Origin: an uncultured Gimesia sp.
Lineage (GTDB): Bacteria; Planctomycetota; Planctomycetia; Planctomycetales; Planctomycetaceae
Reading direction: 5' to 3'
Length of the DNA: 35,374 bases
Assembly: GCF_937910335.1 (NCBI RefSeq)
Contig: NZ_CALEMX010000350.1
Coordinates: forward strand, 1 to 35,374
Positions 28,561 through 35,374 of this stretch are shown here, piece after piece (position 1 is the stretch's first letter; the number at the start of each line of letters is the position of its first letter). The notes beneath the pieces were generated by a model. The model was not told the DNA's origin. It did no database searches and saw only the letters and a list, made by a program, of their open reading frames with translations. The translations under genes were made by a program, and so were the position numbers.

Positions 28561-29256
28561 TTATAAAATTTCTACGGGATACTTTCGGGGTGCCCAGAGT
28601 GCCTCGGCATATTTTACGCGACAAGTCTGACCACGATAGCGGGCCAGTGTTTCTTTTCCCCGTAATGCACCATGCGGTTTTTTGGGATCATACTTAATAT
28701 TTCCCTGGAGGGCCATGTAACGGCCGAGCCAAGTCATTGATTGCTCCCAGTAATCCGAGACATTTACAAAGGTATCTGGTTCAAAGCCGATGGTGTGTCC
28801 CGGGCCGTTGTCGTAGTGATAGATCTTACGGGGGCCTCGAAATCGATCTTCATTGAGAACCCGACCGCCATGATTGAGGGCAATTTTACTTAGTTGTGAT
28901 GCGACCGTATGATCGTGGTGGTGATCGTGCTCCCACAATTGTAATGCGATGTCGGGTTTCAACTCATGTATCGCACCCGCTACCTTTTGTTTCGTTTTTT
29001 CGTTGGTATCAAATTGATGCGACGCGAAATCAAGAAACCGCGTTTCGACGCCATAGTCCTGTGCGATGCTGATAACCGATTTTCTGAAAATGTCTTCACG
29101 ACCTTTGGTGGGGGGCCAGTTGCTGTAGTCGCCAATCAGAATTAATTGCACGACTCGATAGTTTTTCGCCACCGCTTTCAGCATGATTCCGGGAACACCA
29201 TAAACACAGTCATCAAAATGAGCACCAATTGCCAGCAGCGTTTTTTGATCAGCCAT
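28561..29256 (-). CDS. PIG-L family (LmbE-like) deacetylase
   Basis: A 231-residue zinc-dependent deacetylase. The N-terminal Zn motif reads G-A-H-F-D-D (His13, Asp15, Asp16; AHxDD form) and the second site lies in W-E-H-D-H-H-H-D-H (108-116), with the third His in this run. Family members remove acetyl groups from N-acetylglucosamine-linked substrates, such as in mycothiol, bacillithiol or glycan processing. The sequence has no signal peptide, so it acts in the cytoplasm. The DinB-family gene follows and a Tat oxidoreductase is divergent. Homologues with glycan-related neighbours are frequent in planctomycetes. The exact substrate is not determined. Confidence 0.9.
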   Translation of the reverse strand: MADQKTLLAIGAHFDDCVYGVPGIMLKAVAKNYRVVQLILIGDYSNWPPTKGREDIFRKSVISIAQDYGVETRFLDFASHQFDTNEKTKQKVAGAIHELKPDIALQLWEHDHHHDHTVASQLSKIALNHGGRVLNEDRFRGPRKIYHYDNGPGHTIGFEPDTFVNVSDYWEQSMTWLGRYMALQGNIKYDPKKPHGALRGKETLARYRGQTCRVKYAEALWAPRKYPVEIL

Positions 29257-31010: not shown

Positions 31011-31046
31011 TCAATGACGACTGACAGAATTTGATATATCTACGAA

Positions 31047-31084
31047 AACAGCACGGGATGATCATTCCGGTGCTGTTTTTTATT
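31047..31084 (+). terminator. Rho-independent terminator after the Tat oxidoreductase gene
   Basis: AACAGCAC (31047-31054) and GTGCTGTT (31070-31077) pair perfectly; within, GGA and TCC extend the stem after a G-G mismatch. The 3' arm runs into a T-rich tail (31076-31084). It ends the plus-strand transcript coming from the oxidoreductase gene. Confidence 0.88.
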
Positions 31085-31106: not shown

Positions 31107-31149
31107 GTAAATAAAGAGAGGCTGACCCACGTTCGCGCAGGTCAGCCTC
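31107..31149 (-). terminator. Intrinsic terminator of the candidate small RNA
   Basis: GAGGCTGACC (31118-31127) and GGTCAGCCTC (31140-31149) form a perfect 10-pair stem with a 12-base loop. On the minus strand the stem is followed by TCTTTATTT (31117-31109), a moderate T-rich tail; on the plus strand it is followed by CAGTCTAATTT, a poorer tail. It is therefore best read as the end of a minus-strand transcript, although a second, fail-safe terminator for the plus strand is possible. Confidence 0.65.
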
Positions 31150-31220
31150 CAGTCTAATTTCGTTAGGATCGAGGTGACCCTTACGAGTGGTGGTCGTCTA
31201 TGACAACCCGCCAGCAGTCG

Positions 31221-31262
31221 CTAAGAACAACCACCTTTCTGGCTACAACAATAACTGTCCAC
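31221..31262 (-). CDS. Candidate cysteine-rich 13-residue micropeptide
   Basis: GTG 31262 opens a 13-codon frame ending TAG (31223-31221) that reads MDSYCCSQKGGCS: three Cys, two of them adjacent, plus a Gly-Gly. AGGAGGTGAT (31275-31266) is complementary to the 3' end of 16S rRNA over ten bases, and the GGAGG core is 7 bases from the start, an ideal spacing and the best ribosome site in the window. No minus-strand gene follows for nearly 2 kb, so a classical attenuator leader peptide is unlikely. The peptide may be functional (metal or thiol sensing) or translation may regulate the RNA. A chance start after a strong site cannot be excluded. Confidence 0.4.
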   Translation of the reverse strand: MDSYCCSQKGGCS

Positions 31263-31602
31263 TCAATCACCTCCTATTCTTGGATAAACTCCCTGATTCA
31301 TCATCGGTTTGTAGCTCCAACTAGAACACAGGCTTTAGTCCTATCGCACTGCGTGGGTGCGATACATGATCTAACCTTATTCTTGCAAATCCTTTAATTG
31401 TGGCAATACCTATTTATATTGAATCAATCAAAAATTCGAGGCCCAAAGATAACACGAAGTCGTAACTCATTTAATTTTAATGAGATATGGACTTTATAAT
31501 TCATCGGATTTTCATTGAGAATTACAGGATGCCAGAGAGCAGGTCGATATTGTACTGGTTTCTTGTGTACTGTTACCGGTTCAATTTGAACGAATTTAAC
31601 GG

Positions 31603-33720
31603 CTATTGATCTCCCGGGGCCATGTGTGGTTCAAAAGTGGTACGACCTGCTTTTTCAGCCTGCTTTACAGCAGCGACCGCTTCCTCATACAAAACCTGTT
31701 GGCAGCTTACGATCTTTTTCTCCTTACTGGGAGTGATGCGTTCGTAAACACCTTGACTGTTTAATATGCGGGCTTTGGCGTTATCTTCAAAATAGCTGTT
31801 GAGTATTTTGATGACCTTACGGGAACTTTTTTTATCTTCAATCGGCACCAGTAATTCAACGCGCCGATCAAGGTTTCGTTGCATCCAGTCGGCACTGGAA
31901 ATAAAGACCCGTTCGTCTCCACCATGATAGAAATAGAAAATCCGGGCGTGCTCCAGAAATCGATCAATGATACTGACGACTTCGATATTTTTGCTTAACT
32001 TGGAAACACCGGGACGCAAGCAGCAGATTCCGCGGATATTCAGTTTGATCTTCACACCTGCTTCAGAAGCTTCATACAAAGCATCGATGATTTGCGGATC
32101 GACCAGCGAATTAACCTTAGCCACGATTCGGGCTTTCTGTCCCTGCTTTTTTCGTTCCGTCTCATGCTGAATCAGATCCAGAATTTTGTCCCTCAGGCTG
32201 ATGGGAGCCGCTTCTAGTTTCTGATATTTCTGGGGTTGAGAGTAGCCTGTAATCGAATTAAAAAAGTTGACAGCATCAGAAGCCAATGCTTCATCACAAG
32301 TAAAATAACTGATGTCGCTATAAATTTTTGCGGTGGCGTCGTTGTAATTTCCTGTACCAAAATGGAGATAGCGTTGAATCCCCTGTGGTTCGCGGCGGAC
32401 GATACAGCAGATTTTTGCATGTGTCTTGAGTCCTTTCACGCCGTAAATGACTTGAACGCCGGCATGTTCCAGGTTTTTGGCCCATTCAATATTCCGCGCT
32501 TCATCAAAACGAGCCTTGAGTTCCACAAGGGCTGTTACATGCTTTCCCTGTTCTGCTGCTCGAATCAAAGCAGCTACAATCGGACTGTTTTTACTGGTTC
32601 GATATAAAATCTGTTTGATGGCTAAAACATCTGGATCAACGGCTGCTTCTTCAATCAGTCGGACGATGGGCTCGAAACTTTCATAGGGATGGCAGAGTAA
32701 AATATCCTGCCGGGAGACATTTTCGAACATCGTGATTTCAGGGTCCACGTCGGGACTGGGTTGAGGAGGCCAGGTCTTTGCTTTTTGCGCATCAAATCCG
32801 GAGATGTCTGTCAGCCTCATAAACGCAGTGAGATCCAACGGACCTGGAATACGATAAACGTTTTCGTCCAGCACATCTAATCCACGTTCCAGAAATTCCA
32901 GCGTTTCTATGGAAACATTTTCGGCAACTTCCAGACGAATGCAACCTCCTTTTTTTCGTTGATCCAGCATGTCTTCCATCTGATGCAGCAGGTCGGAAGC
33001 AAACTCATCCTGCAGACTGACATCCGCATTTTTGGTAACACGAAAGGGAATGCTCTCCAGAACATTTTCGCCTTGAAAATAATTTTCAATAAACAGGCTC
33101 ACCACATCTTCCATAGGCAAATATCGATAGCCGCCTTCCGAGGGAAGTGTAATAAATCGAAATTCTGTTCTGCCAAAAGGAATAATTGCAAAGCGATTGT
33201 CAGAATTTTCACTTTTTTCATCTGGTGCCAGACGAACAATCATATTCAATGTCTGATTCATCAGATAAGGGAAATCCATTTCCGGCGTCACTGCCATCGG
33301 GGTGAAGACTGGATAGATCTCATCACGGAAAACATGTTCTACAATGCGTCGTTGAGAGTCGGACAGTTCCTGAGGTTTTGCTCTGTGGAACCCGACTTCA
33401 GCTAGAGCAGGTTCGATTTCATCCAGTAAGCACTGATATTGATCGACCATCATTTGGTGAGCCCGCAAACTGATTGCTTTCAATGTCTTACCGGGTGTCA
33501 TACCTGAAGGATCAGCCGTTGTATTGCCGCTCGTTTTCAATAAATGCAGCCCACCCACGCGGACCATAAAAAATTCGTCAAGATTCGAACTGGTGATCGC
33601 CAGAAACTTCAATCGTTCCAATAAGGGAATCGAAGTGTCATGGGCTTCATCAAGAACTCGTTGATTAAATTCCAGCCAGCTAAGTTCCCGATTCAGATAT
33701 TTTGATGCTTTAGCAGCCAT
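31603..33720 (-). CDS. ppk: Polyphosphate kinase 1
   Basis: A 705-residue PPK1 that reversibly transfers the gamma-phosphate of ATP to polyphosphate at the inner side of the membrane. The N-terminal start YLNRELSWLEFNQRVLDEA is diagnostic, followed by the head domain and two phospholipase-D-like C-terminal domains. The phosphorylated His is His434 in GLKTHAKICC; the second conserved His is in DRFLEHARIFYF (near 590), and LHFGTGNYND is also present. Length is normal. The exopolyphosphatase gene lies 79 bases upstream on the same strand, so synthesis and degradation of polyphosphate are probably encoded in one operon. ATG 33720 is the natural start with a short weak ribosome site. Confidence 0.97.
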   Translation of the reverse strand: MAAKASKYLNRELSWLEFNQRVLDEAHDTSIPLLERLKFLAITSSNLDEFFMVRVGGLHLLKTSGNTTADPSGMTPGKTLKAISLRAHQMMVDQYQCLLDEIEPALAEVGFHRAKPQELSDSQRRIVEHVFRDEIYPVFTPMAVTPEMDFPYLMNQTLNMIVRLAPDEKSENSDNRFAIIPFGRTEFRFITLPSEGGYRYLPMEDVVSLFIENYFQGENVLESIPFRVTKNADVSLQDEFASDLLHQMEDMLDQRKKGGCIRLEVAENVSIETLEFLERGLDVLDENVYRIPGPLDLTAFMRLTDISGFDAQKAKTWPPQPSPDVDPEITMFENVSRQDILLCHPYESFEPIVRLIEEAAVDPDVLAIKQILYRTSKNSPIVAALIRAAEQGKHVTALVELKARFDEARNIEWAKNLEHAGVQVIYGVKGLKTHAKICCIVRREPQGIQRYLHFGTGNYNDATAKIYSDISYFTCDEALASDAVNFFNSITGYSQPQKYQKLEAAPISLRDKILDLIQHETERKKQGQKARIVAKVNSLVDPQIIDALYEASEAGVKIKLNIRGICCLRPGVSKLSKNIEVVSIIDRFLEHARIFYFYHGGDERVFISSADWMQRNLDRRVELLVPIEDKKSSRKVIKILNSYFEDNAKARILNSQGVYERITPSKEKKIVSCQQVLYEEAVAAVKQAEKAGRTTFEPHMAPGDQ

Positions 33721-33799
33721 GTTTAACCTGTTGTAAAAAAACGGAATTTAAAAATTATGGTTGTGAAAAACTCATCAGCACAGTCATTTCATTTGCCTG

Positions 33800-35374
33800 T
33801 TATTTTTTCCTCAACTGGACCTTGAGCCCGAAAACTTCTTCAAACAATGGTCCTTTTTCCACCAGTGCAATCTGTTCCAATGAAACATCTTCGACATGGG
33901 GGATGGAGATAATCAATTTTCCCTGCTTAATATCACATTCGATTTCTTTAACGCGTTGACTATAGGAAGAATCCAACGCATCAGCGACTCGCAGAATGGC
34001 AGCCATTTTGGTGATCGCAATACGATTTAAGCGATCTAATGTGGCATAGCCCGGATGGGTAGCTTTGGGGGAAGCCCTCCGGTGGTAGCGGGCGATTAAT
34101 GAAACCAGCAGCAGATCTGTCTGCCCTAGACCAAATAAATTTCCATTGCTGATTAAGTACATCGAGTGTTTATGGTAGCCACTTTGATTCACATAAATTC
34201 CAATTTCATGCAACAAGGCGGCAGTATATAACAACAGACGATTTCGCAATTCGAGTTTGTGCTCATTTTGCAGTGACTGGAACAGGGTGTCAGCTAGAAA
34301 TGCAACATGTCTGGCGTGTATTTCATCAAAGTCAAATCGCTTACCGAAATCAATGGTCGAACGGATAACCTGTCGATTGAATTCATCCGACCAGTTTTGC
34401 TGGTCTGCCATTTCTTTCAGCAGGCCATCTCGAAAATTTGCCTTGGTGACGTAAATGTGTTTTAACTGATAGGCTTCTGCCAGTTTCGTGTATGCCAGCA
34501 GTGCAGGTCCCAGAGTTTCGGCGTCGGTAAAGGAAAGATGGTAGTTTTGAACAAGTTGGTCTTCGTTTTTTTGTAAAATCTGATCTGTAAATTTGCTAAG
34601 TTCAGATACTTTGATTCGGTCCAGTTCGTCAGGTGAATTGGTAGGGTCAGGAATTTCATCTTCTGGTCGCAATTGGGACAGGGCAAACCTCACATCACCG
34701 CCGAGAACCACTAGTTTAATTGATTTATCACTTGGTACTTCATGTACGATTTGCTCGACAACACGCTCGATTTGATTTTCCATGATCGTACGTTCTTTGG
34801 ATAACGGAACGCGATACCCTTTCAGCATCTCGCGCAAACGCAGCGCCCCGAGTCGATAATTATTTGAGAATAAGACATCTCCATTTTGTACAAGTAAGAG
34901 TTCGGTCGTACCTCCCCCAATTTCAGTGACGATTGTTCGCGCCTCGTCAAGATTTGGCTTTGCTGTCAGATAAGGCCGAATTCCCTGATACGTGATCCGG
35001 TTCACTTCCGCTTCATCCAGAGGTGCAATTTCGAAACCGGTTGCGATAAAGATCCGGTCGGTAAAGACGAGACGATTGTCGGCCTCCCGAACAGCGCTGG
35101 TAGCGACGACGCGAATTTGATCATCGCTGGTAATCTGATATTCATCCAACCGTCGGCGGTAGCTCTTGAGAATTCTTACGCATTCCTCCATCGTCGTTTT
35201 TTGAATGTTACGCATCTGGAATGTGTCTTCGCCGAGAGTCACGGCTTGCGAGAGCTTCTCCAGCGTATTTACGCTTCCGTCCGCTTTGATTTCAGCGATC
35301 TCCATACGAATCGCACCGGTACCGATATCGATGACGGCAATCAAACGATTCGCAACCGTATCGGGGCGACTGGC
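33800..35374 (-). CDS. ppx: Exopolyphosphatase (Ppx/GppA family), cut at the window edge
   Basis: At least 524 residues; the 5' end lies outside. The first in-window start-like codon, TTG 35344, is not the real start because the frame continues open to the edge (reading ASRPDTVANR before LIAVIDIGTG). The actin-like ATPase fold shows phosphate loop VIDIGTGAIRMEI, ATSAVREADN and TEIGGGTTELLLV. From about residue 320 of the visible part comes an HD-like helical domain (ALLHEIGIYVNQSGYHKHS), as in E. coli PPX and GppA. It releases phosphate from polyphosphate ends or converts pppGpp; the two activities cannot be separated by sequence. The companion ppk gene follows directly, which favours exopolyphosphatase. 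Confidence 0.93.
   Translation of the reverse strand, partial: ASRPDTVANRLIAVIDIGTGAIRMEIAEIKADGSVNTLEKLSQAVTLGEDTFQMRNIQKTTMEECVRILKSYRRRLDEYQITSDDQIRVVATSAVREADNRLVFTDRIFIATGFEIAPLDEAEVNRITYQGIRPYLTAKPNLDEARTIVTEIGGGTTELLLVQNGDVLFSNNYRLGALRLREMLKGYRVPLSKERTIMENQIERVVEQIVHEVPSDKSIKLVVLGGDVRFALSQLRPEDEIPDPTNSPDELDRIKVSELSKFTDQILQKNEDQLVQNYHLSFTDAETLGPALLAYTKLAEAYQLKHIYVTKANFRDGLLKEMADQQNWSDEFNRQVIRSTIDFGKRFDFDEIHARHVAFLADTLFQSLQNEHKLELRNRLLLYTAALLHEIGIYVNQSGYHKHSMYLISNGNLFGLGQTDLLLVSLIARYHRRASPKATHPGYATLDRLNRIAITKMAAILRVADALDSSYSQRVKEIECDIKQGKLIISIPHVEDVSLEQIALVEKGPLFEEVFGLKVQLRKK

Follow-up and report, generated by a model that had tools for sequence, protein, structure and literature searches.

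A putative ribosome-responsive small RNA gene built around an obligatory mini-ORF in Planctomycetia

In a stretch of 35,374 nucleotides from an uncultured Gimesia sp. (hereafter the window), we found that a 13-codon ORF forms the middle of what is predicted to be a folded, stand-alone small RNA gene of about 260-265 nt, with its own predicted promoter and terminator. This small RNA has not previously been described. With moderate confidence, we propose that it is a stand-alone structured RNA gene whose core is an obligatory mini-ORF, and that the RNA would respond to ribosomes and act in trans. The ORF had been pointed out in a sequence-only reading of the window; the conserved structured RNA of ~265 nt around it had been missed there.

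The mini-ORF and the RNA gene in the window

The features of the element are listed in Table 1. The Shine-Dalgarno (SD) sequence AGGAGGTGAT at 31275-31266 of the minus strand has an AGGAGG core and is followed by 7 nt and a GTG at 31262-31260, and the 13 codons MDSYCCSQKGGCS run from there to TAG at 31223-31221. When the sequence was read again, the SD, the GTG, the peptide and their positions proved to be exactly those of the sequence-only reading. In addition, AGGAGGTGAT occurs only once in exact form in the window (0.06 expected from shuffles), and its ten bases are the true complement of the 16S 3′ end in one genome of the same genus (GGCTGGATCACCTCCTT). The same 16S 3′ end was sought in the window's own assembly and gave no match.

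Table 1. Features of the predicted RNA gene, with positions in the window
Feature	Position	Strand	Basis or remark
Sigma-70-like promoter, TTGCCA-16-AAGAAT, extended -10	31379..31406	-	TTG...N16...NANNAT recurs in aligned homologs of other genera
Predicted transcript, ~265 nt	31108..31372	-	Start placed from the -10 box; fold stability and conservation in the genus
P1, 5′ hairpin ATCGCAC-CCACGCA-GTGCGAT, conserved CGY in loop	31343..31363	-	Stem covariation
Shine-Dalgarno AGGAGGTGAT	31266..31275	-	10-nt complement of 16S 3′ end; kept in 100/100 aligned homologs
13-codon ORF, GTG to TAG, MDSYCCSQKGGCS	31221..31262	-	Start, stop and frame kept in homologs
AGGTGG inside ORF, 5′ strand of helix S1, also SD-like	31231..31236	-	12 nt before stop
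Ha hairpin GACTGCTGGCGGGTTGTC, loop GGCG matching P1 loop CGC	31202..31219	-	Covariation, loop match
Hb hairpin GGGTTGTC-ATA-GACGACC, mutually exclusive with S1 and Ha	31192..31209	-	Pairing, fold
CCACC, 3′ strand of helix S1	31189..31193	-	Covariation, duplex energies
P3 hairpin CTCGTAAGGGTCACCTCGATCCTAACGA, arm GGGTCACCTC as internal anti-SD	31160..31187	-	SD x P3 complementarity; SD paired in free fold
Intrinsic terminator with 15 pairs, a 4-nt loop and a T-rich tail reaching about 31108	31117..31150	-	Sequence

The gap between 31011 and 31602 holds no other gene, as had been noted. Upstream of it lies ppk1 on the same strand, and the downstream GFO/IDH/MocA gene is convergent. The region 31603-35344 holds ppk1 and, upstream of it in the same orientation, a Ppx/GppA phosphatase gene, the two serving as a pair for polyphosphate synthesis and degradation; in genomes of the genus Gimesia, the RNA directly follows ppk1. 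Between the element and the convergent gene, AAAACAGCACGGG...CCGGTGCTGTTTTTT (31045-31082) makes a second hairpin whose ends are rich in T; it is kept within the genus and looks like the convergent gene's own terminator. Meanwhile, a PIG-L deacetylase gene (Pfam) was found near the element at 28561-29256, and a related gene cluster flanks the loci L112, L115, L129, L160 and L191, where PIG-L was judged from sequence only. Such genes are common, and their proximity to the element may be due to chance.

A DNA search with a 341-nt query around the ORF showed a conserved block of ~300 nt in 16/16 other genomes of the genus (86-98% identity), which starts at the promoter (31406-31379) and ends at the terminator (31150-31117). 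For the predicted transcript, the fold energy is -100.3 kcal/mol (z -5.3), and none of 200 shuffles was as stable. Furthermore, the 55 nt comprising SD, ORF and stop are 99.4% identical in 17 species of the genus, the next 75 nt 87%, and the single variable base of the 55 within the genus falls in the C-terminal S or T codon. Judged from these alignments, the conservation of the ORF at this site is far from chance. Conservation within the genus that lacks synonymous change fits an RNA as well as a peptide, and thus more distant relatives were needed. The window's own genome holds no further copy of the element, its other matches being chance 15-20-mers.

Occurrence of the element and conservation of the ORF

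Using a covariance model built from ten sequences (R1), we found the element in 256 of 397 genomes of Planctomycetia, nearly always as one copy per genome. Among 392 genomes drawn from the phylum, clear R1 matches fell almost only inside Planctomycetia. Matches to the sequence pattern inside coding genes (L061, L062, L063, L111, L117, L130 and others) lacked the layout and were rejected as chance. Meanwhile, the 4227 models of Rfam release 15 gave no family match in the window at the gathering threshold and no RNA family match in the gap at E up to 5, and at the loci of 13 relatives only tRNAs passed the gathering threshold. No planctomycete RNA of like kind was found in the literature searched, subscription papers being outside the search. 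According to a review, only 8 sRNAs are annotated for the whole PVC group (PMC9029176), so that an RNA of this kind may easily have gone unnoticed.

An SD near AAGGAGGTGRT, a start 6-9 nt later and an in-frame stop were present in all of 100 aligned homologs. The ORFs have 10-18 codons, with 86 GTG, 12 TTG and 2 ATG starts and 39 TAG, 35 TAA and 26 TGA stops. The peptides vary, for example MEYDCSSQRGGTA, MEYCCTRQRGGNA, MDSDSQRQRGGNR, MSSDRLSYDSNSQRGGDA and MCSENQGRLA, although QRGG recurs in Planctomycetia. To obtain a null for coding, substituted bases were shuffled among the changed positions in pairs of homologs. Change in frame 0 was more conservative than this null and change in frames 1 and 2 less. 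Since frame 0 alone behaves in this way, translation is supported, and the ORF is very probably translated, as the sequence-only reading had supposed. The frame-0 signal is positive but modest (1871, 1969 and 2205 changes at codon positions 1, 2 and 3). The distance from GGTGG to the stop was 12 nt in 80/99 sequences and 11-15 nt in all. In addition, GGTGG stands in codon phase 0 in most homologs and in phase 1 in one family, where the ORF is shifted on its start side as well as on its stop side.

It had been suggested that the product is a Cys-rich micropeptide that binds metals or senses thiols. The peptides of the genus do hold three Cys, and the majority of those of Planctomycetia have at least one. 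However, in the alignment with relatives the SD and the start were kept and the three Cys codons were not: the peptides have 0-4 Cys, 16/100 have none and 51/100 only one (Cys-poor or Cys-less examples are MDSDSQRQRGGNR and MDYDSSSQHRGGVL), and several peptides of Acidobacteriota also lack Cys. We give this reading hardly any probability.

When 84,980 species were scanned for an exact pattern, 40 stretches matched. Outside Planctomycetota, the full layout was present in Acidobacteriota (Vicinamibacterales), Myxococcota and one MAG labelled Aminicenantes, and the rest lay inside genes. There AAGGAGGTGATCCAGTGGA starts an ORF of 14-15 aa, such as VDDASTCPTEVASS and VDIDCTYTAGEVVHL, and a CCACC or ACTACC further along is able to pair with the AGGTGG of this ORF. 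In both phyla, AAGGAGGTGATCCAG is complementary to the 16S 3′ end over 15 nt. Group models found one copy each in 25/199 genomes of Acidobacteriota and 12/189 of Myxococcota, and the ORFs were intact in all sequences read from them. On loci of these two phyla that had been preselected by motif, R1 scored only 16-26 bits; the layout is shared. The peptides and the codon phase of AGGTGG differ from those of Planctomycetia, and still the stop comes 11-15 nt past GGTGG (13 nt in Acidobacteriota and in most Myxococcota sequences read).

The RNAs of Acidobacteriota with the SD-ORF-AGGTGG layout are L098, L103, L104, L105, L110, L116, L123, L135 and L222-L240. By eye, their upstream hairpin loop (TGGG, AGGGG, GTGGGG) is complementary to the bases just before GCCACC (CCCA, CCCCT, CCCCA), a possible contact parallel to that of P1 and Ha. 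The version of Myxococcota (L099, L100, L119, L133, L244-L254) encodes the peptide M-x-x-D-C-T-x-T-A-G-E-V-V. The ORF peptide of the Aminicenantes MAG (L127) is identical to that of L110 from Acidobacteria, and this may reflect misbinning.

These comparisons bear on whether the gene is simply one for a small protein, that is, whether the peptide of 10-18 aa is the acting product, with the RNA structure doing no more than regulating its translation. Besides the frame-0 signal, the recurrence of QRGG in Planctomycetia, EVASS/EVAAP in Acidobacteriota and AGEVV in Myxococcota is in its favour, as is the L247 sequence of Myxococcota, which keeps EVV despite a GTG to GTT change that breaks AGGTGG. 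Such conservation within phyla could mean that the peptide itself matters. However, Cys and most other residues are not kept, the length varies, the three codon positions change about equally, and across phyla the peptides share little beyond the stretch fixed by AGGTGG. Thus, we consider a small-protein gene unlikely, while allowing it some weight. In the reading that we prefer, the peptide would play a secondary part over deep evolution while being moderately conserved within each phylum (QRGG; EVAS; AGEVV).

Structure and covariation

P1 lies 67-85 nt before the SD, and at least 47 distinct stems occur among the homologs. Its own strands were 95% paired versus 58% for swapped strands, the sites having been picked for pairing, which inflates the 95% somewhat. 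Helix S1 (AGGTGG with CCACC) and Ha, together with P3, showed two-sided changes in 9/18 pairs, and 0/500 shuffles, which ignore relatedness, were as good. Hb takes the same strands otherwise and is 95% paired in its own helix; beside the covarying S1 and Ha, this indicates that both folds are conserved. When duplex energies of own and swapped partners were compared, z was -10 for the ORF 3′ end with the CCACC region and -5.5 for the SD with P3, and two control segments were null. Furthermore, P1 loop CGC goes with Ha loop GGCG, and CGT with GACG, in 88/90 sequences (shuffled maximum 72), and both misses contain CGC. The one true exception to this rule is L092, whose Ha loop reads TGTG and which lacks a recognisable CGY hairpin. 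The match of the two loops is, as far as sequence comparison can tell, the signature of a loop-loop contact.

Four RNA contacts covary, namely P1, S1, the SD with the anti-SD hairpin, and the P1 loop with the Ha loop. The covariation and pairing tests all ignore relatedness; judging from the null controls and from how many distinct stems occur, relatedness is not the whole cause.

In the free fold of the window RNA, the SD is paired on average at 0.81. When the stretch from SD to stop is blocked in the folding model, as it would be by a translating ribosome, the SD and the anti-SD arm are freed and P3 forms. The free-energy model prefers Hb and SD sequestration over S1/Ha in the window RNA, and S1/Ha and the kissing loop rest on covariation, the kiss being outside the folding model. 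That the model does not favour S1/Ha here is, on present modelling, the weakest link of the switch proposed below.

The anti-SD hairpin also brings in the idea of a dual-function or ribosome-binding regulatory RNA. In that case ribosomes, or the SDs of mRNAs, would be direct targets of the super-SD or of the hairpin (GGATCACC, which resembles the 16S 3′ end), and translation of the ORF would be incidental. The 15-nt complement AAGGAGGTGATCCAG of Acidobacteriota and Myxococcota fits this idea, and P3 often reads GGATCACC. However, such an RNA would need no start, frame or stop, and yet these are kept in 100/100 homologs, so we regard it as improbable.

Transcription attenuators and leader peptides of neighbouring genes were considered in the same way. 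Like the element, attenuators and leader-peptide RNAs, including rnTrpL/peTrpL of Sinorhizobium meliloti (PMC7298713), have a short ORF of ~14 codons, a strong SD and a terminator, as well as mutually exclusive hairpins overlapping the ORF end. However, the following gene in the window is convergent, and neighbours differ in identity and strand between families; an all-against-all BLAST found no neighbour gene conserved across families, and synteny only inside a genus or family. The element is a free-standing single-copy gene; none of the families examined has a structural gene with it in cis, and it shows no run of a sensed codon (no fixed run of one codon was found in the 100 peptides). Moreover, its SD is predicted to be sequestered by a 3′ anti-SD hairpin, and its 5′ hairpin to make a loop-loop contact, unlike in attenuators. 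This reading is therefore disfavoured, and we hold it to be very improbable. The sequence-only reading had also doubted a leader peptide, and the terminator behind the ORF and the absence of a neighbour common to the families agree with that.

A proposed ribosome-operated switch

The peptides and the codon phases vary, and yet the stop is fixed after GGTGG, which suggests that the conserved thing is a ribosome reaching a fixed point of a switchable RNA. Thus, we proposed that the RNA probably changes its shape when its very short peptide is translated. While the RNA is closed, the SD and the start codon would be hidden by pairing with the anti-SD arm of P3 and with the CCAC next to it. Once ribosomes have loaded and translated to the stop, AGGTGG would be covered by them, as would the 5′ arm of Ha; P3 would then fold on itself and the 3′ half would adopt Hb, which a ribosome at the stop would leave as the sole choice. 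In this way the RNA would report translation of its own ORF, that is, the availability of ribosomes or of the aminoacyl-tRNAs needed. The output may be an exposed or hidden RNA segment, or the bound state itself, and it would act in trans because no gene lies downstream in cis. The sequence features and their covariation are shown by the analysis, while transcription, translation, the direction of the switch and the trans output are inferred.

Among known RNAs, tmRNA is structured and single-copy, makes pseudoknot-like contacts and holds a short internal ORF that closes with a stop, and the element has all of these in common with it. However, the element has an SD and a start codon and lacks a constant tag peptide, and no Rfam model matched the window or, apart from tRNAs, the 13 relatives' loci scanned. 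Dual-function small RNAs encoding short peptides, surveyed in PMC5521070, are similar in being stand-alone transcripts of sRNA size (predicted here) whose ORF of 10-50 aa shows some coding constraint. However, the ORF of the element is obligatory, its stop falls at a fixed point of a covarying structure, and its peptide changes. The trans-acting rnTrpL/peTrpL shows that attenuator products can act in trans (PMC7298713); unlike in peTrpL and the dual-function sRNAs, the position of the ORF is conserved more than the peptide in the element.

More tentatively, the RNAs of Planctomycetota, Acidobacteriota and Myxococcota may together represent an ancient, unrecognised class of ribosome-operated small RNAs, in which a changeable mini-ORF translated to a fixed stop would be the input of a trans-acting switch. 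When a structured RNA is kept in single copy across a bacterial class, matches nothing in Rfam and holds an ORF that gene callers pass over as too short, it likely does something basic. With models, coordinates and conserved pairs now defined, it can be tested in culturable Planctomycetia such as Gimesia. If the reading as a ribosome switch is true, this would be a regulatory RNA that takes translation itself as its input and works without a gene in cis.
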